IMG/VR virus record: IMGVR_UViG_3300037264_002599
Span: 1-28,493 of that record
Direction: 5' to 3' (one strand)
DNA: 28,493 nucleotides
Origin: a virus
Shown here piece by piece: positions 11,677 through 24,025 of this stretch. Positions within the stretch are counted from its first letter, which is position 1, and each line of letters begins with the position of its first letter. The translations under genes and the position numbers were made by a program. The notes under the pieces are model-generated. The model made no database searches. It was not told the DNA's origin and worked only from the letters and a program-made list of their open reading frames with translations.

Positions 11677-12468
11677 ATGAAACCAATAATAATCGCCGGT
11701 CCATGTGTAATTGAAGACAATTGCTTAACAATAGCCAAAGAAATAGCCAAAATTGCGAAATCAACCAGGATCAAGATCATATTTAAAGCTTCTTATGACA
11801 AAGCCAATCGATCATCAGGTAAATCGTATAGAGGACCTGGTTTAATTGATGGTATTAAAATCTTAAATGAAATTAAACACTCAACCAAATTAGAAATATT
11901 GACAGACATTCATGAACCAGAACACGCACGATTAGTATCACAAGTAGCTGACATCATCCAAATACCAGCATTCCTATGCCGACAAACTGATTTATTAGTA
12001 GCTGCCGCCAAAACTGGTAAAACAATCAATATTAAGAAAGCACAATTTCTATCACCTAACGACATGATTAATCCAATTAATAAAGTACATTCAACCAACC
12101 GCAATAACATAATGATTACAGAAAGAGGAACCTGCTTTGGATACAACAATTTAATCAGCGACATGCGAAGTATTCCAATAATGAAAAAATTCGGATACCC
12201 TATCATTTATGATGCAACCCACTCAGTACAAATACCAGGAGGACTTGGATATGCTTCAAGTGGTAATAGAGAATTTATTGAACCATTAGCTATGGCCGCG
12301 ATTGCCGCTGGTGCAGATGGTTTGTTCGTTGAGACACACCCTAATCCAGACAAAGCACTCTCTGATGGCGCAAATATGCTACATTTAGATAAATTAGAAG
12401 AATTCATTATAAGAATAATAAAGCTTAAATCAGTTGTTGACCAGATGCCTTCTCTCTATAAGCTTTAA
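11677..12468 (+). CDS. kdsA: 3-deoxy-D-manno-octulosonate 8-phosphate synthase
   Basis: Condenses phosphoenolpyruvate with arabinose 5-phosphate to KDO 8-phosphate, the first committed step to KDO, the sugar joining lipid A to the lipopolysaccharide core. The 263-residue protein covers the whole TIM-barrel family length (bacterial enzymes 265-285). Signatures: FKASYDKANRSS (36-47), YRGPGL (51-56), ITDIHEP-like LTDIHEP (75-81), IPAFLCRQTDL (96-106), and KKFGYPIIYDATHSVQ (170-185). IAGPC places a Cys at position 10; with His182, Glu219 and Asp230 this gives the complete metal site of the metal-dependent class (as in Aquifex), not the Asn type of E. coli. GAGG precedes the ATG. Its last 44 bases overlap the uracil-DNA glycosylase gene tail to tail. 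All key residues are intact. Confidence 0.93.
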   Translation: MKPIIIAGPCVIEDNCLTIAKEIAKIAKSTRIKIIFKASYDKANRSSGKSYRGPGLIDGIKILNEIKHSTKLEILTDIHEPEHARLVSQVADIIQIPAFLCRQTDLLVAAAKTGKTINIKKAQFLSPNDMINPINKVHSTNRNNIMITERGTCFGYNNLISDMRSIPIMKKFGYPIIYDATHSVQIPGGLGYASSGNREFIEPLAMAAIAAGADGLFVETHPNPDKALSDGANMLHLDKLEEFIIRIIKLKSVVDQMPSLYKL

Positions 12469-13441: not shown

Positions 13442-13891
13442 ATGGGTCCATGGGCTATATCAATCCTCAGTAGCGTACCATCGGCACATCATTCCGCATT
13501 TAATAAAGCATATAATTGGCCACAGCGAATTTTCTATAATAAAGAATCAGATTGTATACGAGCAGTCGTAAACGGGGATAAAGCTGTAGCCACCGCTGAT
13601 AGTCAAGTACGATTTAATATAGTCGGCAATATACCATCAGGATTTGACATAATCGCTGGCATACCTAGTAATTTATCAGAAATATTCTATAATAAAGCAA
13701 ATGAAGATATTGCCAGATTATTAGAATGGGTAATAACAAATTTAGATCCTAAAGACGCCGAATTCCACTACATGTCTGGTATCATATTTGGGATCCCATT
13801 TCAAAATATTAGAGATTTCATTGATCAAAGCAATTATTATAATAAATCAGAAGCATTACAAGAACTCGACTCATTAATCAACACGCCCTAA
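13442..13891 (+). CDS. Unknown protein
   Basis: A 149-residue plus-strand protein without a recognised family. It has no signal peptide or transmembrane segment that I can defend. Segments include YNWPQRIFYNKESDCIRAVVNGDKAVATAD, a FNIVGNIPSGFDIIAGIP stretch, and a C-terminal helical part. The Shine-Dalgarno is weak (AAAGATAGC before the ATG at 13442). It starts 24 bases from the divergent glycosylase start and its last 18 bases overlap the phosphatase gene tail to tail. Confidence 0.6.
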   Translation: MGPWAISILSSVPSAHHSAFNKAYNWPQRIFYNKESDCIRAVVNGDKAVATADSQVRFNIVGNIPSGFDIIAGIPSNLSEIFYNKANEDIARLLEWVITNLDPKDAEFHYMSGIIFGIPFQNIRDFIDQSNYYNKSEALQELDSLINTP

Positions 13892-14395
13892 TTTAACGGC
13901 AAATCTTCTAATCAAATGCTCCTGAGTAAGAATAACAAGACCAAACCCCTTAGCCTCAACAATAGCATCATCAACATTCCAATTCTCAACGGCAATCCTA
14001 TAACAGGCAACCATTACCCCAGTACGACCTCTACCAGCCTCACAATGCACAAAAACCGGCTGATTAGAAACATCCTTGACTAATCGTATAAATTCTCTTA
14101 CTTGCTTAATAGTTGGCGCAGTATTATCAATAATACGAATCCTAGCATACTTAAAACCAAATTGCTTACACTCCTCAGCATCATCAGCAATCTTATTAGG
14201 TTCGGCACATAAATTAACAATTAACCTAACACCATCTCGCTTCAAAGCTCTATACTTATCAAGACTATCAAGCCTAGAACCACGCCACAGTATTGGCGAT
14301 ACACGAAACGCATAATGTTTAACTGGATACTTCAGTCCAACCAATTCCAATAAACCAATAATTGGGCCAATAATGCTTTTAAGCAATCGCATCAT
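13874..14395 (-). CDS. Dual-specificity/tyrosine phosphatase-like protein
   Basis: A 173-residue protein with the cysteine-phosphatase signature VFVHCEAGRGRTGVMVACYR: Cys118 nucleophile, Arg124, and the following Thr. Upstream GVRLIVNLCAEP and IRIIDNTAPT give the usual strand pair with Asp90 as candidate general acid. The fold is that of compact dual-specificity or PTEN-like phosphatases. Residues 5-20 are hydrophobic (LKSIIGPIIGLLELVG) and could form a membrane-associating helix. Targets cannot be told from sequence: phosphoproteins, phosphoinositides, RNA 5' ends or sugar phosphates are all possible. No clear Shine-Dalgarno precedes the start; a second ATG follows immediately. It lies 34 bases downstream of a tRNA-like gene. 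Confidence 0.82.
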   Translation of the reverse strand: MMRLLKSIIGPIIGLLELVGLKYPVKHYAFRVSPILWRGSRLDSLDKYRALKRDGVRLIVNLCAEPNKIADDAEECKQFGFKYARIRIIDNTAPTIKQVREFIRLVKDVSNQPVFVHCEAGRGRTGVMVACYRIAVENWNVDDAIVEAKGFGLVILTQEHLIRRFAVKLGRVD

Positions 14396-14429
14396 ATAAT
14401 ATATTTGTATGAATTATTAAGATCATATA

Positions 14430-14504
14430 TGGAGCGCTAGGGCCTGCATCGAGCAGCCCTCTCCCACCTGGAAAGTGAGCACATCGAGCCTATGCTTCTA
14501 GCGC
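14430..14504 (-). tRNA. tRNA-Gly(UCC)-like gene with encoded CCA
   Basis: The minus strand folds as a cloverleaf: 7-bp acceptor GCGCTAG/CTAGCGC, discriminator T and encoded CCA (14432-14430); short D arm GCAT/ATGT with GG in the loop; anticodon stem CTCAC/GTGGG with loop TTTCCAG, anticodon UCC; T loop CTCGATG. U73 agrees with bacterial Gly identity. Unusual points: A instead of U at position 8, a C where T54 is normal, and one extra base in the T stem (GGCTG/CAGGCC), so it could be degenerate. Its first bases overlap the stop codon (TAG, 14500-14498) of the homing endonuclease gene. Confidence 0.55.
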
Positions 14505-16066
14505 ACAAGATCATATACATATCTAAACTTCTTCCCACCCCAAACCTTTGAATAACCAAACTTATTACAATATTCAGTCTCCATCATAGACATCTGCTTA
14601 GCCTTATTCCACAAAGTTTTCTTGTGACAGATATAACCTCTATTATCAGCATACCAATAATCAGGCGAAACTTCACCATCAAGTCGCCAATTACTGGCCT
14701 TATAAATTGTCCCAAGATGATTATAGGTAGAATCAGCAAATGAAACTAAACACTTTACTTCTAATCTACTTTGTTTGACATAACCAATTGATTTGGCAAT
14801 TAAATAACTAGCAAAATTCTTAACCTGGTATTTAGGGTGAATGCAAAATCGAGATAATTCAAGAACCCCACTAAACTTATAACCCTGCTTTAACGCTACT
14901 TCCTGTCTCACCGGTATTGAGTATATGCAAACTGCTATAAGAACATCACCAAGATAGAAACCGAGATTAATACCAGATCTACCGATCCTGCCAGCATAAT
15001 GATATTTAGAAACAAATAACTCAGCTTCCTTAGCTTCAACAATTGACATCTTAATAAAATTAAAATCGAAATTTATAACTTCGATCTTCGATAATCCTAA
15101 CCAATATTTCAATGTCTCTATAATACGATCTTTAAAATTAAATTCATGCTCCCATAAATACTTTAAATCAAATTCTGAATAATAAGTTTTAAGATAAGTT
15201 GATTTCGATTTATCCTTACTGACTGTTTTAGGCAGAGAATGCCAATAATCACCCTGGACCTCAATTAACAACGGTCTAATTAGATCAACACTTGGTTGTA
15301 AATCAATGCGACAATCAATTTGATAAAATCCGATTGTAATTTCTTTCTTATATTCGATATTAAGATCATCTAAAATAGAATATAAGATATTCTGTTGCGT
15401 ACTTGGCCCCTTTAACATCTTTTGCAAATTCAATAATCTAATCTTAGACATCTTCTCTCTATATTCAGGATCTGACCAAACCTCATTCATTCTTTCTCTA
15501 AACTTCTCACTATGACGTAATTCATCCATTTTTCGACGATAAACATCAGTAGCTCTATATTTCTCGATCTTAGCACGATAATTAGGATCATCCCATTGTT
15601 TCTTACACCTATCAGAGAATGGTCTCTTAATCTTCTCTCTAAAACCTGGCTCAGACCACATAGCCTTAGAACAACTTGATATAGCATCTCTATTAATCGT
15701 TGCAAGCCATCGATTCTTATAAACAGGATCAGACATTAATATTTTATTCCTATCACTAACTAACTTACGCATCTTATCTGATTTAAGATGATTCAAGACT
15801 TTATTAGCTGATTCACTATCCCACAATTTCTTGGCATTCCTAGAACAAATCACTTTATTAATTGAACATTTATGACACGAGTACACACCACCATTTTTCC
15901 TAATCGTCTGAAGATGTGAACATAGTTTGATTATCTTGACGTTATTACACTTAGGACATTTAATAGGGACATCCATTTTAGTTGATGGAACAACATCCAA
16001 CTTATTATATTGAACATATTGTGAAAATAACCGATCATCTGATGAAACATCTATCATATAATTCAT
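14498..16066 (-). CDS. Vsr-like homing endonuclease fused to Mom-like acyltransferase domain
   Basis: A 522-residue multidomain protein. Residues 35-70 carry a zinc-finger-like C37-x2-C40...C64-x2-C67. Residues about 80-210 hold five repeats of a DNA-binding type resembling NUMOD3/IENR motifs (W-S-D-P-E-Y-R-E-K-M and variants near 112, 138, 159, 173, 197). Residues about 222-320 look like the Vsr/EDxHD nuclease fold: QIDCRIDL, LLIEVQGDYWH (267-276) and YLWEHEF (303-309). Residues about 340-520 resemble the GNAT-fold Mom family that modifies adenine in phage Mu: LELSRFCIHP, LVSFADSTYNHLGTIYKASNW and the end KKFRYVY. It starts just downstream of the sheath terminator. Two starts are possible (16066, or the ATG at 16057, better spaced from AGGA). 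Domain calls are from pattern recognition; the nuclease part is surer than the Mom part. Confidence 0.75.
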   Translation of the reverse strand: MNYMIDVSSDDRLFSQYVQYNKLDVVPSTKMDVPIKCPKCNNVKIIKLCSHLQTIRKNGGVYSCHKCSINKVICSRNAKKLWDSESANKVLNHLKSDKMRKLVSDRNKILMSDPVYKNRWLATINRDAISSCSKAMWSEPGFREKIKRPFSDRCKKQWDDPNYRAKIEKYRATDVYRRKMDELRHSEKFRERMNEVWSDPEYREKMSKIRLLNLQKMLKGPSTQQNILYSILDDLNIEYKKEITIGFYQIDCRIDLQPSVDLIRPLLIEVQGDYWHSLPKTVSKDKSKSTYLKTYYSEFDLKYLWEHEFNFKDRIIETLKYWLGLSKIEVINFDFNFIKMSIVEAKEAELFVSKYHYAGRIGRSGINLGFYLGDVLIAVCIYSIPVRQEVALKQGYKFSGVLELSRFCIHPKYQVKNFASYLIAKSIGYVKQSRLEVKCLVSFADSTYNHLGTIYKASNWRLDGEVSPDYWYADNRGYICHKKTLWNKAKQMSMMETEYCNKFGYSKVWGGKKFRYVYDLVR

Positions 16067-16081
16067 TCCTAGTAATTATTT

Positions 16082-16110
16082 AAAAAGGGAGGCTCATCAC
16101 CTCCCCTTTT
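16082..16110 (-). terminator. Rho-independent terminator after tail sheath gene
   Basis: Minus strand AAAAGGGGAGG, loop TGATGAG, CCTCCCTTTTT. A 6-bp GC-rich stem extended by A-T pairs and followed by a T-run, 20 bases after the sheath stop codon. Its near-symmetry (A-run upstream) would let it act in both directions. Confidence 0.85.
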
Positions 16111-16129
16111 AAATTCAAATACTTACTTA

Positions 16130-18994
16130 TTACTGAGTAGCGAGAACCACGCCACCGGCCTGAAGAACAGCCTCAGAACTAAAGCTAGCCTCTGTTCTAA
16201 GGACTACTAGATTTAGTTGAATGAATTCTGCTGCGCGCGTGGGCTTCAGGAAGTACGCAACGTGCAACTCATTGCGATCAATCCGTTCTGGCGTGTTATT
16301 TCTATCGTCGCAAACAACCGAAAAACCAGTCAATCCACGACGTGCCTGAATATCGGCAAGGAATGAGCTGCTAACATTCGCAACACGTGCTCGCGTGATC
16401 TTATCGTTAGGCTCAAACACGAACTGACGTAGGAAATTAATCGCATTCTTCTTAATGAAGATCAAGAGCATGCGGACATTAACGCGATCCAAAGCCGTAG
16501 CACGACGTTGTAGCGTCCTCTGACCCCATACCGTGATCCCGTCTTGCGGGAAATTCACAATCGCATTAACCGCATTTCCAGAACCATACATCAAATCGCG
16601 CTCACCCATACTCAGATCAACTTCTGTATCGAGTGGGGTCAGTAAGCGACCTCTATTCACACCAGCAGGAGCAAACCAAGTCTCAGCTACACGCTCAGTC
16701 CTAGCATAAACACCTGAAACATGGCCACTTGGTGGTGTAAAGATCGTACCACCATTAAATTGATCAAACAACTTCAACCATGGATGGTACAACGCACCAT
16801 AGCTTGAGTTAATTGCCTGAGCCAAATCACTGAAGAGGATACCGTTGTGCCAATCAACAACCTGTTGAGCACGTAGGCCAAATGGTGGATCAATGATGAA
16901 GAGACAATCACCACGCGTCTCACACATTCTCAAGCCCTGGCCAATTACCGCACCAGAACTAAATCCTGGGATGATGAGCAATGAAATGTCGAACACTTCT
17001 GGATTCTGGAATGCAAAGATGCCAGTCTCCAAATTCGGATTACCAATCACTGATCTATCAAGCTCAGAAGAGAATGACGGATCAGCCGGTATGCCATTTG
17101 CCGAACCAGTGAAGTCCTTACGGCTGAACGAACCAGGTACCCTAACCTCGAAATTGTCAGGATCATTCACTGGATCATTATTCAAGAAAGCAGGACGCGG
17201 TATCCACTGAACAAAACTATTACCATTCGGACCACCAAACTGGGAACCTTCATTGATCACGTTCCCAATATAGCGCTCATCGCGTGGATCGAAAGTCACA
17301 TCTTCAAATGCATCGACAGTCTGATTATTCTTGTCTTCAATGGTGACCTTAAAACGACCAGCAACATCACCAGCACCTTCACCTGCGCCGAATATATCCA
17401 GTGTAACCTTAAAATCATCAACCCAGGTACCGGCACTCTTCGCAACTAGCCATCCAACGATATTAGCAAAATATCCTGAATCAGCTGCACATTCATCACT
17501 GAATGCATCAACCTCGCAAGAGAGTGGGGTATTTGGCGTAACTGTACCAGCATCAGGCAGCAATACTCGTGAATCGCTGAATACCTGATATGCCCTCGTG
17601 TATGGGAATTGAATGCCAAGTTCTTCTGCGAAACGCAGAGTCTTGAAATGTGATCCATCGGCTTGCATTTTGAGCTGGTCGAATTGGTGATCAACCACTG
17701 TCTCAATGAAGACATGTGTTTCACCACCAGGAATTAACATTGCGAAGGAGCGCCAATAACGTTCACCTGTCTTAATACCACCAAGATGTATCGCATTGGC
17801 GATAGCAGCACCTGATTGATTCAAACCAACAGTGATACTGAATTCAATCTCGACGGTGCTGGCTTGACCAACTACTTCAATATTGACACGATTGTTCTCC
17901 GTAGTAATATCATATGGCTCTGTATTGGTCGAATGAAGGTGACTACGTGGGATGTCATAAGCATATAGAGTTTGTCCAACTTCTAAGGAAAATGCCTCTC
18001 TCGATATAAGTTGAATGTTCCTACCAGCAACATCAGTCGTAAAGCATACCGTATCGTCGTCCTGAGAAATCGCTCTGTATGGCTCTACACTCGAAATCAG
18101 TGTATTAATATCATCAGCGAAATCATCAGAATCGGTATAGGTAGAACCATCTGGGATCGTGTACTCAACCACTGATCCAGGATCTTGTCTATCAACATTG
18201 AAGGAGAACGTTCTATTGTCTGGTCGAACGGTGAATGTGAATGTATCGTTGGCTGCAATTGGGACTGACCCAGTTACAACAATAGCAAATACTAGTCCAT
18301 CGCCGATATCGATCAGTTCTGATGTGCCAGGAGTACCACTTTCCACTATTATATCGGCCAGTACCGTAGTGCCATCTGAATTACGAATGACCTCGAATGT
18401 TGCGCCATCCATTACGGAACCACCAGTAGCAGGTACATCGCTGGTGATCAATACTGTGAATGAATCATCAATTGCACCAGTGTAGCTGGTCAAACTGACA
18501 AAGCTCAGTGTGGCACTTACTGGTCCTGGGGTCGGGTCTACATCAATATCGTTATAATCAATATCAAACACAAGTGCCGAATGGAAAACAAGTGGAGCAT
18601 CGACACTAACTATTCTTGTGCAGATCTTACCGAAGTCAATTCCGGAGAATATCGCTATTCGTCCCCATCCTTTACCACGAGCACCTGAATTGTCGATACA
18701 AATGTCTGCTAATCCATCTGGTTGTCCTTCTTCGCATTCTACGCCGACCCGTAGAATCCATGCTCTTCCGCCATCTTCAAAGTAGGCTAGGACTGCATAG
18801 CCAAGGAAGCTCTCTGGGAATGGCTCGCCGAAGATGTCAATAAATTGTTGTGAGTTACCAACGAAGGTCGGGTCCTGGAGAGGACCTTTTTTGGCAGTTC
18901 CAATGAACGCGGGTGTTAGTGCGCCCGTGTTGGTTGGAATTGCGCTTAGATCAATCTCTCTAGGAAATACTCCTGGCGAAAGAAAGACTGCCAT
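16130..18994 (-). CDS. Contractile tail sheath protein (gp18-like)
   Basis: A 954-residue sheath subunit that polymerises around the tail tube and contracts to drive injection. The N-terminus FLSPGVFPREIDLSAIP and TPAFIGTAKKGPL...FGEPFPESFLGYAVLAYFEDGG are classic for the family, as is the C-terminal domain with ITVWGQRTL, NVRMLLIFIKKNAINFLRQFVFEPND and the final RNELHVAYFLKPTRAAEFIQLNLVV. It is about 300 residues longer than T4 gp18 (659). Extra beta-rich, Thr/Ser/Asp-rich stretches (roughly 140-330 and 500-560) look like surface insertions on the outside of the sheath. A strong GAGGAG sits 8 bases upstream and a terminator follows. The gene seems more GC-rich than its neighbours, fitting very high expression. 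Confidence 0.93.
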   Translation of the reverse strand: MAVFLSPGVFPREIDLSAIPTNTGALTPAFIGTAKKGPLQDPTFVGNSQQFIDIFGEPFPESFLGYAVLAYFEDGGRAWILRVGVECEEGQPDGLADICIDNSGARGKGWGRIAIFSGIDFGKICTRIVSVDAPLVFHSALVFDIDYNDIDVDPTPGPVSATLSFVSLTSYTGAIDDSFTVLITSDVPATGGSVMDGATFEVIRNSDGTTVLADIIVESGTPGTSELIDIGDGLVFAIVVTGSVPIAANDTFTFTVRPDNRTFSFNVDRQDPGSVVEYTIPDGSTYTDSDDFADDINTLISSVEPYRAISQDDDTVCFTTDVAGRNIQLISREAFSLEVGQTLYAYDIPRSHLHSTNTEPYDITTENNRVNIEVVGQASTVEIEFSITVGLNQSGAAIANAIHLGGIKTGERYWRSFAMLIPGGETHVFIETVVDHQFDQLKMQADGSHFKTLRFAEELGIQFPYTRAYQVFSDSRVLLPDAGTVTPNTPLSCEVDAFSDECAADSGYFANIVGWLVAKSAGTWVDDFKVTLDIFGAGEGAGDVAGRFKVTIEDKNNQTVDAFEDVTFDPRDERYIGNVINEGSQFGGPNGNSFVQWIPRPAFLNNDPVNDPDNFEVRVPGSFSRKDFTGSANGIPADPSFSSELDRSVIGNPNLETGIFAFQNPEVFDISLLIIPGFSSGAVIGQGLRMCETRGDCLFIIDPPFGLRAQQVVDWHNGILFSDLAQAINSSYGALYHPWLKLFDQFNGGTIFTPPSGHVSGVYARTERVAETWFAPAGVNRGRLLTPLDTEVDLSMGERDLMYGSGNAVNAIVNFPQDGITVWGQRTLQRRATALDRVNVRMLLIFIKKNAINFLRQFVFEPNDKITRARVANVSSSFLADIQARRGLTGFSVVCDDRNNTPERIDRNELHVAYFLKPTRAAEFIQLNLVVLRTEASFSSEAVLQAGGVVLATQ

Positions 18995-21720: not shown

Positions 21721-22338
21721 TCACCAAAGAATCGGACCCAACGGTTCACTAAGTAACAGGGCATCCTGAACTGCTTTATCTTTCTCAGCTTGCCCCTCGG
21801 TCCTTAGAGCATCGCCATTCAGGTTCAAAGAACCACCACCAGGCGCAGGTATATTACCAAATTTACTCCTAGAATTACCCAACATAATCTTAGCCTCCGC
21901 GACTAGCGCTCGCTTCAAAATCTCTCTAGCATGCGGTGAGCGAAATCGTTGAACCGTTGGAATATACTCGATAACAACTGGGAAACTACCGCGTGGTGTT
22001 GGAAATAACCTTATTTTGTTGTCTCCCTTAACCTCCCATTGTCCTTCAGTTGCGAGAATGCGTTGACTGAATTTCCTATAAGCTTGTAATAAATGGTAAT
22101 CAGTCAAGATATTCTGAATACCAGTTACGTTACCAACATTCGCTGCAAGACCAATCTTAAATAAAAAACGATCAAATGTGGTATCATATTGGATATTTTG
22201 TTTGCCACCAAGCTCGGTATATAGGTCCATAAATTCACGGTTATGTTCACTAGTGCCGAGAACTAGATGAGTAGTTTCATGAATAAGATCGTTAAAACTA
22301 GACGCGAAAATCAATCCACAATTGTGATCAGTTAACAT
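21721..22338 (-). CDS. gp13-like neck protein, C-terminal half, preceded by a mini C-intein
   Basis: A 205-residue protein whose first residues M-L-T-D-H-N then Cys look like the end of an intein (His-Asn) and the +1 nucleophile. It then continues as the C-terminal part of a T4 gp13-type head-completion protein: VTGIQNILTDYHLLQAYRKFSQRI, KIRLFPTPRGSFPVVIEYIP, and AEAKIMLGNSRSKFGNIPAPGGGSLNLNGDALRTEG ending LGPILW. Its own GAGGA Shine-Dalgarno seven bases before the ATG shows it starts here; the frame upstream is closed by a TGA a few codons earlier. The start overlaps the last bases of the endonuclease gene. Joined to residues 1-107 of the gene at 24025 it makes a full-length neck protein of about 306 residues. 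A HETTH...H motif occurs near residue 20. Confidence 0.8.
   Translation of the reverse strand: MLTDHNCGLIFASSFNDLIHETTHLVLGTSEHNREFMDLYTELGGKQNIQYDTTFDRFLFKIGLAANVGNVTGIQNILTDYHLLQAYRKFSQRILATEGQWEVKGDNKIRLFPTPRGSFPVVIEYIPTVQRFRSPHAREILKRALVAEAKIMLGNSRSKFGNIPAPGGGSLNLNGDALRTEGQAEKDKAVQDALLLSEPLGPILW
22321..22338 (-). other. Candidate six-residue C-intein (MLTDHN) before Cys+1
   Basis: Codons ATG TTA ACT GAT CAC AAT followed by TGT. The pair His-Asn then Cys is the C-terminal splice motif of inteins (block G). It aligns with the end of the N-terminal half (P-V-L-V-H, then stop), whose Asn is missing. Confidence 0.6.
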
Positions 22339-23287
22339 ACAATTTCCTCAAAACCAACTTATACAAAGTTGGCGCAAGACACTTGCTATAAAGATATTTG
22401 AATCCATCAATTGTATAATTCTTTAATTCATCATAGCTCTTAAAATAATAAGTGACTTGTTTTATGTCAGTTCGAGGTCTTGCTCTTATAAATTCATATC
22501 GCTCCTTTGCGTATCCATTCAATAACAGTTCCCATCCTTTAATCCTTTCCACATCTGAAATTAATCTAAATTTTTTACCTCGTTTTTCGGCCTCGCGTTC
22601 AGCATATAATCTCTTATCAGTTGGCATAACCACATATGACGGTTTCACTTCTACCCACTCATCTTTTAACGTAAAATCAATAGTGTATGTTCTTTGCTTC
22701 CCACTTATATGATCAACATATTTGATTCTTTCTGATTCATATGTCCAATTAACACCAGCTTGATCAAGATATAGTGTATATGTTAATTCCATAATTGATT
22801 TCAGATAAATTATTGGTCCATTCAACATCTGAAATTTAACTTTGTTGACTGAACGTGAATATTTATTTGTATGTTGACTTGGATGAACATAACCATGTTT
22901 TTCCAAATAACGTGATTGCCATGCACCAACCAATTGGTCATTTGATTTTATTAACCCAAATTGCTGAACATACTTCCTAACCGTAGAATAATGCACACCA
23001 ATCTTTTCGGCAATTGATTTGGTATCAAAATTCTTATTAATGTATTCATCGACAAGATATTTCTTGGTCAAGACATCTGATTTGGCGCAAACTTTCTTTC
23101 TATGCTTAATCTTGGCTATGTCTGAATGATTATAACGTGACGTATTAATACCAGCAGAACGTAGTTTCCTTTTTATTGTTACTTGACTGCATCGATAATA
23201 TTCGGCAAGATCAGATAGCGTCTTACCATTATTAAATCGGTCAACCAACTCATCTTTTGGTATATCAATTACATTCCATATTATCAT
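22328..23287 (-). CDS. Free-standing homing endonuclease, PD-(D/E)XK-like
   Basis: A 319-residue protein located exactly between the two halves of the neck gene. Residues about 10-50 and 75-115 are two helix-turn-helix units (TLSDLAEYYRCSQVTIKRKLR and SIAEKIGVHYSTVRKYVQ), suitable for DNA targeting. The central part has a PD-(D/E)XK-type nuclease pattern: Glu167 (SIMELTY), Asp204 (YTIDFTL) and Glu213-Val-Lys215 (WVEVKPS), followed by a helical region. It would cut intein-free alleles and promote its own spread. It is in a different frame from both flanking halves; its stop overlaps the start of the downstream half and its start lies 24 bases after the upstream stop. The ribosome binding site is weak. 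Group I introns are not visible around it, so it belongs to the split-intein element. Confidence 0.8.
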   Translation of the reverse strand: MIIWNVIDIPKDELVDRFNNGKTLSDLAEYYRCSQVTIKRKLRSAGINTSRYNHSDIAKIKHRKKVCAKSDVLTKKYLVDEYINKNFDTKSIAEKIGVHYSTVRKYVQQFGLIKSNDQLVGAWQSRYLEKHGYVHPSQHTNKYSRSVNKVKFQMLNGPIIYLKSIMELTYTLYLDQAGVNWTYESERIKYVDHISGKQRTYTIDFTLKDEWVEVKPSYVVMPTDKRLYAEREAEKRGKKFRLISDVERIKGWELLLNGYAKERYEFIRARPRTDIKQVTYYFKSYDELKNYTIDGFKYLYSKCLAPTLYKLVLRKLYVN

Positions 23288-23311
23288 AATCTATATTTGA
23301 CAGCAATTAAA

Positions 23312-24025
23312 TTAATGTACTAAAACTGGTTCGCCATCATATGCCACATACAAACATTGTGCCTGTCTCATAGCAACAGCATAACTATCAATCATACCAC
23401 CATCCTTAACTGAGATTATCTGAGATTTGTGGTCAATCCCAACCAAAACATCGTTCAATTCTAATTCATCATTATTTAACCATCGATTCTTATTCAAGCA
23501 GAATATCGGATGATTAACAGTCGCAACTAATGTCCCATATTCATGAACAAGCTGCCTTGCTTGTTGTAAATGCTTTGAATTCCTCTTGTAAATTATTGCT
23601 TTCCTATTTCCGTATGGAGTCTTTGCTTTCCAATGTGGTTTCCATTCTGAAATTTCTTGAAGTCGATTATCCTTGTCAAGGATTTTTGTGGCTTTTGGAA
23701 AACAGAAGAGGAAGCTCTCAGCTCCAAAGATATCACCAATCCTCGTAGTTGCTGGATCCCATTTGACATCCTTTATCCAATAAGCGTCTGGTGGTAGATC
23801 ATATTCTGTTACTAGTGGTTGTGTGTAGAAGTACGCGTATTTCTCTTCTAGTGGGAAGTATTGAGCAATAAAATCACCAGTTACCCGGATTGCTTGTTCT
23901 AATTGTGGTTCTGTTAATTCGACCATTACGACTGGATGTCCAAGTTGAGATAGGACCTCGAACTTGATTGGATCTGATGGCAATTTCAAAACCACCGGTA
24001 ACTGTTCAGGTCCAATTATGGCCAT
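23312..24025 (-). CDS. gp13-like neck protein, N-terminal half, fused to Hint/intein domain
   Basis: A 237-residue protein. Residues 1-107 are the N-terminal part of a gp13-type neck protein: LSQLGHPVVMVELTEPQLEQAIRVTGDF, VTEYDLPPDAYWIKDV, and the end IGDIFGAESFLF. Residues 108-237 form a complete intein-like domain: Cys108 with FPKATKIL (block A), GTLVATVNHPIFC at about 164-176 with the Thr-x-x-His of block B, NDELELNDVLVG, and a last strand CLYVAYDGEPVLVH (blocks F/G) that stops at the penultimate His. The C-terminal Asn and the rest of the neck protein lie in the gene at 22338. I chose the ATG at 24025 because GGAGA is seven bases upstream; a longer frame begins at 24079 without a ribosome binding site. 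Confidence is for the intein and neck assignment together. Confidence 0.82.
   Translation of the reverse strand: MAIIGPEQLPVVLKLPSDPIKFEVLSQLGHPVVMVELTEPQLEQAIRVTGDFIAQYFPLEEKYAYFYTQPLVTEYDLPPDAYWIKDVKWDPATTRIGDIFGAESFLFCFPKATKILDKDNRLQEISEWKPHWKAKTPYGNRKAIIYKRNSKHLQQARQLVHEYGTLVATVNHPIFCLNKNRWLNNDELELNDVLVGIDHKSQIISVKDGGMIDSYAVAMRQAQCLYVAYDGEPVLVH
23315..23704 (-). other. N-intein / Hint domain (130 residues)
   Basis: Codons for residues 108-237 of the N-terminal half. Block A begins C-F-P-K-A-T-K-I-L; block B carries A-T-V-N-H-P; the end is G-E-P-V-L-V-H then TAA. No endonuclease domain is inside; the endonuclease is a separate gene just downstream. Confidence 0.75.

Follow-up and report, generated by a model that had tools for sequence, protein, structure and literature searches.

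Homing endonucleases, which cut DNA, and DNA hypermodification have mostly been studied separately, and a phage gene that appears to unite the two raises the question of what a cutting and a modifying domain do for each other in a single chain. Such a gene lies in IMG/VR record IMGVR_UViG_3300037264_002599 (positions 1-28,493, i.e. the whole stretch of 28,493 nucleotides that was analysed, hereafter the window). The original prediction, made from the letters alone, was of a homing endonuclease fused to a Mom-like DNA-modification domain. Is the C-terminal domain a genuine Mom, does the gene behave as a homing gene, and do the two activities belong together?

An intact nuclease-Mom fusion

The gene is an intact open reading frame with an ATG start, in the frame originally given (Table 1), and the AlphaFold2 model of its product, built with 35 family members as input, has a mean pLDDT of 85.2. 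The N-terminal part starts with the zinc finger that had been foreseen, here a knuckle of the form C37-x2-C40 ... C64-x2-C67. The 'five NUMOD3-like repeats' that were said to follow stand in part: residues 70-220 contain three strict W-x-[DE]-x2-[YF]-[RK] units (mean 0.025 and maximum 1 in the shuffled stretch, n=1000), and further, looser units can be found by eye, but Pfam NUMOD3 gave no match to the window protein at E<=1 (the PA5oct relative scores E 0.059). By analogy with the usual make-up of homing endonucleases, the repeat region presumably binds DNA. GerD and other Pfam matches to the helical repeats were rejected as chance. The PHROG family 3339, annotated 'homing endonuclease', matches the protein nearly over its full length (E 7.4e-17, residues 41-518, profile positions 71-533 of 536). 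A defence-system identity was rejected, as the sole PADLOC match was to 'homing endonuclease' (E 4e-4).

Table 1. Features of the fusion gene and its neighbourhood (window coordinates)
Feature	Position	Strand	Evidence and remarks
Nuclease-Mom fusion CDS	14498..16066	-	522 aa, stop counted in; ORF call, Pfam/PHROG profiles, AlphaFold2 model
Zinc knuckle CPKC...CHKC, residues 37-67	15866..15958	-	Cysteines 37, 40, 64, 67; model pLDDT by blocks
Helical repeat region, W-x-D-P-x-Y-R units, residues 75-215	15422..15844	-	Motif count and model; DNA binding presumed
EDxHD/Vsr-type nuclease domain, residues 222-330	15077..15403	-	Profile, alignment, predicted fold
Mom domain (GNAT fold), residues 336-522	14501..15061	-	Pfam, PHROG, alignment, predicted fold; S420 = Mu Mom S124
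Tail sheath gene, upstream neighbour of the fusion, presumed homing neighbourhood	16130..18994	-	phrog_23 tail sheath, E 6.6e-78
Hairpin with T run, terminator-like, between sheath and fusion genes	16087..16105		Similar hairpin after the sheath gene in L102
Segment missing from L102 (fusion and phosphatase genes)	13879..16128		DNA comparison; L102 sheath protein 93% identical
Dual-specificity-type phosphatase gene, downstream of the fusion	13874-14395	-	Best Pfam Tc-R-P, E 5.3e-22; also missing from L102

The nuclease core is made of D251, the stretch E269-x-Q-G-x-Y-W-H276 and E306. A profile relation links the domain to I-Bth0305I (PDB 3r3p, E 1.3e-11), and the predicted fold of the isolated domain (pLDDT 93.4) is closest to the same structure (Z 12.8), Vsr scoring Z 11.0 (1cw0). 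Residues, profile and fold hence all bear out a core of the Vsr/EDxHD type, and the nuclease signature DEGWHDKE is found in 33 of the 35 distinct fusions of the window type.

The identity of the C-terminal domain is equally clear. Pfam Mom (PF25680) matches residues 340-520 with E 1.3e-28 (100.5 bits, cut-off 27.1) and PHROG 1384, 'Mom-like DNA modification protein', with E 2.3e-31. The predicted fold superimposes on Mu Mom (8bv8) with Z 19.1 and an rmsd of 3.4 over 179 aligned residues, the next best being other GNATs at Z 14.6; in a Foldseek search, 8bv8 was also the closest structure (E 2.4e-11). That entry is titled as the inactive mutant S124A of Mu Mom; alignment of Mu Mom (241 aa) with the 8bv8 chain puts the mutated serine at residue 124, and its counterpart in the window protein is S420. 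The original prediction placed Mom at residues 340-520, to be checked by profile search and structure prediction; both confirm it, together with the signature residues, and the claim survives the search for its main weakness, a lack of Mom/GNAT similarity, since that similarity is strong. Open reading frame, profiles and predicted folds agree, far above chance, that nuclease and Mom are joined in one chain.

We defined a Mom signature of ten positions (356, 357, 403, 406, 420, 445, 452, 455, 459 and 481 in window numbering), which reads HYERSDGYNH in the window protein. The same ten residues are found in 28/35 distinct window-type fusions, a set that omits L041 and L044 (run off the contig), L042 and L089 (broken frame) and 13 near-duplicates. 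The remaining seven differ at position 459 alone (G for N459), H356, Y357, E403, R406, S420, D445, G452, Y455 and H481 being invariant. Among 13 stand-alone Moms hand-picked from the search matches, Mu included, 11 read HYERSDGYNH and two have T for S. A separate reading of Mom copies from phage records (39 stretches, 38 from eight records and one from RaK2; L193 and L219 dropped for wrong frame, L220 unused) gave H356, Y357, R406, D445, G452 and Y455 in 37/37 readable copies, position 403 being E or D and position 420 S or T. Within the window-type family, mean pairwise identity is 0.441 for Mom, 0.400 for the nuclease and 0.206 for the N-terminal part. The Mom domain is under purifying selection in both clades of the family described below (dN/dS 0.05-0.20, from few usable pairs with small counts, mostly of the Hef clade, the two window-type pairs being nearly identical or saturated). 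The intact signature suggests that the Mom domain of the window protein is catalytically competent. In one 280-aa frame (L203, record G005) the nuclease is shortened and H276 changed to Y, with a nearly intact Mom signature (HYERSDGYNN); the nuclease may be decaying there while Mom is retained, in keeping with a Mom that does not depend on its nuclease.

A large family with two nuclease classes

A unique fusion could be ruled out, at least 194 relatives being present among 600 pattern stretches listed from viral contigs. When viral contigs were queried with the Mom domain, 323 of 388 stretches encoded relatives; window-type and Hef-type fusions are common in these contigs and abundant in large phages, while one scan of bacterial and archaeal genomes gave few close relatives (six loci, one of them on the contig binned as Lokiarchaeota that is described below). 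The 80 loci kept from the Mom-domain query comprise 72 with an EDxHD domain (69 best matched by the window-type profile, three by the Hef-type profile), six with an HNH region (five by profile, L277 by eye) and two cut by contig ends. Another window-type fusion, of 1272 aa and much longer than the others, lies directly after a tail sheath gene (L105:8940-12758).

Mom is joined to HNH nucleases in at least eight sequences (L208, L209, L213, L215, L277, L280, L285 and L289), which come from large phages and carry tandem HNH/endonuclease VII-like regions beside Mom. Four of these proteins have matches to Mom as well as to HNH endonuclease families in PHROG, of which phrog_2255 scores best (E 1.3e-47). 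When 69 Mom rows were placed in a tree, the HNH fusions nested in the window-type fusions: the eight form a group with two other EDxHD rows (support 100/99), which joins a set of window-type rows (99/95). This nesting implies that Mom has passed from one nuclease class to another, in a direction that depends on the root.

Two clades of EDxHD fusions emerge. The groups 'near' (window-type) and 'Hef' were first set by search rank and the tree then agreed, 'near' needing two label changes. A branch supported 100/99 sets off the Hef clade, and the window protein lies outside it, in the sister fusion clade; the tree is unrooted and fits one fusion event as well as two. The window's clade keeps nine of the ten signature positions in all its 35 distinct members, whereas the Hef clade has lost parts: Y357 is replaced in 37/37, so that none reads HYERSDGYNH, although most other positions are mostly kept.

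The Hef family carries an altered Mom

Relatives of the fusion are annotated Hef-like in RaK2, CP30A and PA5oct, and Tequatrovirus LH2 encodes a 522-aa relative exactly between the ribonucleotide reductase alpha and beta genes (nrdA/nrdB). According to the available parts of two reports, hef of phage U5 occupies the nrdA-nrdB position (PMC3322345) and its product cleaves nrdB (PMC2988022). How far does the Mom domain extend into this family? Of 43 Hef-clade proteins, 24 were matched (E<=1e-3) by a profile of stand-alone Moms and 38 by the Mom profile extended with window-type sequences (LH2 with E 5.3e-6); none of the 43 reversed sequences matched in either search. Judged from these sequence matches, the Hef family ends in a Mom domain that has decayed or been altered. 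The LH2 signature, HLERSNSY-H, is broken, with N in place of the aspartate, a change of D445 shared by RPN226, Octan, PM2 and SdyM006; in the T4-type members, Mom is eroded and the nuclease signature intact. The GenBank record of Octan names a 'putative nuclease/acetyltransferase protein'. Hef of phage U5 is also reported to cut the DNA of its carriers. This and the broken Mom of LH2 in the hef position make it seem that members of the wider family home without self-protection, and the erosion of the signature in the Hef clade means that self-protection is not general for the whole family.

Genomic site and mobility

Downstream of the sheath gene the window and its relative L102 part ways: DNA similarity stops right after the sheath stop codon and restarts about 2250 bases on in the window and 53 bases on in L102. 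The phosphatase gene is missing there too, so L102 does not show a site that lacks the fusion gene only. The same site is occupied repeatedly. In 75 sheath loci from viral contigs (80 less L113, L161, L168, L169 and L170, where the contig end cuts the sheath gene), the tube gene follows within 400 bases in 46, a Mom/Hef-type nuclease gene comes first in 11, the tube gene comes after other genes in 11, the contig ends too soon in four and neither gene is found in three. The 11 occupied sites hold nine window-type genes (L136, L137 and L139 are near copies) and two Hef-type genes, one of which has no Mom match at E 1e-5. A fusion-family gene also adjoins the sheath gene in PA5oct and CP30A, and a phage-like contig binned as Lokiarchaeota has the same sheath-fusion gene order.

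Copies are numerous and unevenly spread. Mom matches occur in 25 of 26 phage records, up to eight per record and 82 in all (some copies being common to G001 and G012); of these, 79 fall within open frames of at least 441 aa. Besides a fusion, RaK2 encodes a Mom in a frame of 208 aa. Among 21 records of phages with the window's sheath family, 11 have a Mom match and 10 have none. Related genes adjoin nrdA/nrdB, gp23/gp24, gp39/gp52, uvsX-type, RNA polymerase and sheath genes. The 'homing endonuclease' of the original prediction is thus supported by where the gene lies, by its patchy occurrence in several copies and by the Hef-like names of relatives, and the fusion gene behaves like a mobile free-standing homing endonuclease gene.

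Other features of the window

At about 14420-14500 (minus strand), the last codons of the fusion gene and the bases downstream can form a cloverleaf-like fold of about 76 nt ending in CCA. ARAGORN found no tRNA there, the sole Rfam match was to another family (E 0.59) and the folding z-score was -1.26; tRNA or Rfam RNA was rejected for the window as a whole, none reaching the gathering score. A promoter scan found 9 where 10.5 were expected. A 1564-base insertion (22141-23704) interrupts a head-tail connector-type gene, and the corresponding site is precisely empty in L102 (2767/2768) and L106 (1100/1101). It contains an ORF for a TnsA-like HTH endonuclease (22328-23287), and a Hint/intein-like stretch was seen, by eye only, at the end of the upstream ORF, which has no match in Pfam, PHROGs or NCBIfam; the insertion is a candidate split intein, fractured gene or something else. 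At 11677-12468 (plus strand) lies a gene of the DAHP synthetase I family (PF00793, E 2.3e-67), an unexpected phage cargo in a region without match in L102.

A possible role for Mom beside its nuclease

The best explanation, to which we give a probability of roughly one half, is a free-standing mobile homing gene, sister to the Hef-like genes, whose catalytically competent Mom marks carrier DNA as self. Target recognition, in or close to the conserved tail sheath gene, would fall to the variable zinc-knuckle and repeat modules; the EDxHD nuclease would cut this target in genomes without the fusion gene, and repair would then copy the fusion gene in behind the sheath gene, where it now stands. 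Mom, if it acts like its Mu homologue, would add a carbamoylmethyl-type group to DNA adenines. It would most likely work with its own nuclease: carrier DNA would be marked as self and escape re-cutting even though the insertion leaves the target undestroyed, and the unmarked DNA of competitors would stay cuttable. The computed basis for this proposal is (i) domain identity, (ii) fold, (iii) signature retention, (iv) mobile distribution, (v) same-site occupation and (vi) the exchange of Mom between nuclease classes. The original hypothesis, a self-protecting homing element or a one-protein restriction-modification-like system, can be reconciled with the Mom signature being intact in the window's clade.

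Mom could instead be useful cargo: it would modify adenines genome-wide and counter restriction, and the homing endonuclease would pay rent with it, the two activities being uncoupled. Mu Mom does protect DNA from restriction (available parts of PMC6483171), and both the intact signature in the window's clade and the shortened frame that keeps most of it beside an eroded nuclease can be read this way. However, up to eight copies in a record, each with an intact Mom and a different N-terminal part, exceed the needs of one genome-wide modifier, Mom occurs in these large phages almost only in long fused frames, and nearly half of the records with the same sheath family do without a Mom match. We therefore regard cargo as rather unlikely, while keeping it as the strongest competitor. 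A genome with several nucleases that each keep an intact Mom speaks more for a nuclease-tied role than for one genome-wide modification, without proving it; nor is retention of Mom in every copy a proof, as a mobile selfish gene may be the sole copy in a genome.

A classic one-chain restriction-modification system, in which Mom marks the phage DNA genome-wide while the nuclease destroys, at many sites and without homing, the DNA of the host or of superinfecting phages, has been proposed in print for the Mom-REase fusions of jumbo phages (Iyer et al. 2021, PMC7824862), and nuclease and Mom signatures are indeed both intact. Yet occupation of the same site beside conserved genes, relatives without the gene and long variable N-terminal modules are homing traits, and T4-type members combine an eroded Mom with an intact nuclease signature, making this account improbable. 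Slightly less probable still is a Mom inactive as modifier and retained as a DNA-binding or positioning module of the endonuclease, which is plausible for the Hef clade (universal loss of Y357, N at D445 in the five phages named above, and a domain nonetheless under purifying selection) but sits badly with the window's clade, where the signature is kept, including the equivalent of Mu S124.

An active modifier coupled to its own nuclease, which would mark self against non-self, hence remains our preferred reading. A wider and more tentative proposal, which we would hold as conceivable but somewhat against the odds, is that Mom serves phage homing endonucleases as a portable module for self-recognition, which the EDxHD and HNH classes have exchanged. 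Carriers would hold several nuclease-Mom pairs with different targets, each marking its own target, i.e. single-polypeptide, site-specific selfish restriction-modification elements, and the T4-type Hefs would be descendants or sisters whose marking activity was lost.

If Mom marks the target of its own nuclease, these genes would be restriction-modification elements pared down to a single chain, and the marking would account for the way in which free-standing homing genes that spare their target avoid self-cutting. The comparison also gives an identity, a decayed Mom, to the C-terminal part of Hef-like endonucleases, and it points to homing genes, rather than agents of genome-wide anti-restriction, behind many of the Mom matches in large phages. 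With its apparently intact Mom domain, the window protein offers a direct test of whether a selfish gene of this kind protects itself.

Comparison with known systems

Fusions of Mom domains to REase-fold nucleases, and their restriction-modification reading, are already known (Iyer et al. 2021, available parts of PMC7824862), so that the window protein joins a known family. In literature searches for Mom joined to homing endonucleases and in the available parts of PMC7824862, PMC2988022, PMC10448857, PMC5219037, PMC3322345, PMC3296691 and PMC6083498, neither HNH-Mom fusions nor a Mom in Hef were found, and a Mom-nuclease fusion appears in the first of these alone. What is new here is the link to the Hef-like homing family, the distinction of clades with intact and decayed Mom, the joining of Mom to HNH nucleases and the finding that the sheath site has been occupied repeatedly.

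Four systems serve for comparison. The fusions of jumbo phages, with a Mom of the GNAT superfamily and a REase-fold nuclease, probably are the window protein's family; they are read as restriction-modification, the words 'homing' and 'Hef' occurring 0 times in the available text (Iyer et al. 2021, PMC7824862). I-Bth0305I and Vsr share the EDxHD/Vsr-type nuclease fold with the window protein but differ in that the matched chains are nuclease parts alone, with no Mom domain. Mu Mom shares the fold, the signature residues and the serine S124 (S420) with the window protein but, unlike it, stands alone without a nuclease. The Hef-like homing endonucleases (U5 Hef; RaK2, CP30A, PA5oct and LIMEstone; PHROG 3339/559) are likewise free-standing, with a variable N-terminal part, an EDxHD-type nuclease, a C-terminal domain homologous to Mom and genes that adjoin conserved genes. 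In these, Mom is eroded (Y to I, L, M or F, mostly N to G, and D to N in the T4-type members read), whereas the window protein, in the other clade, has kept it.
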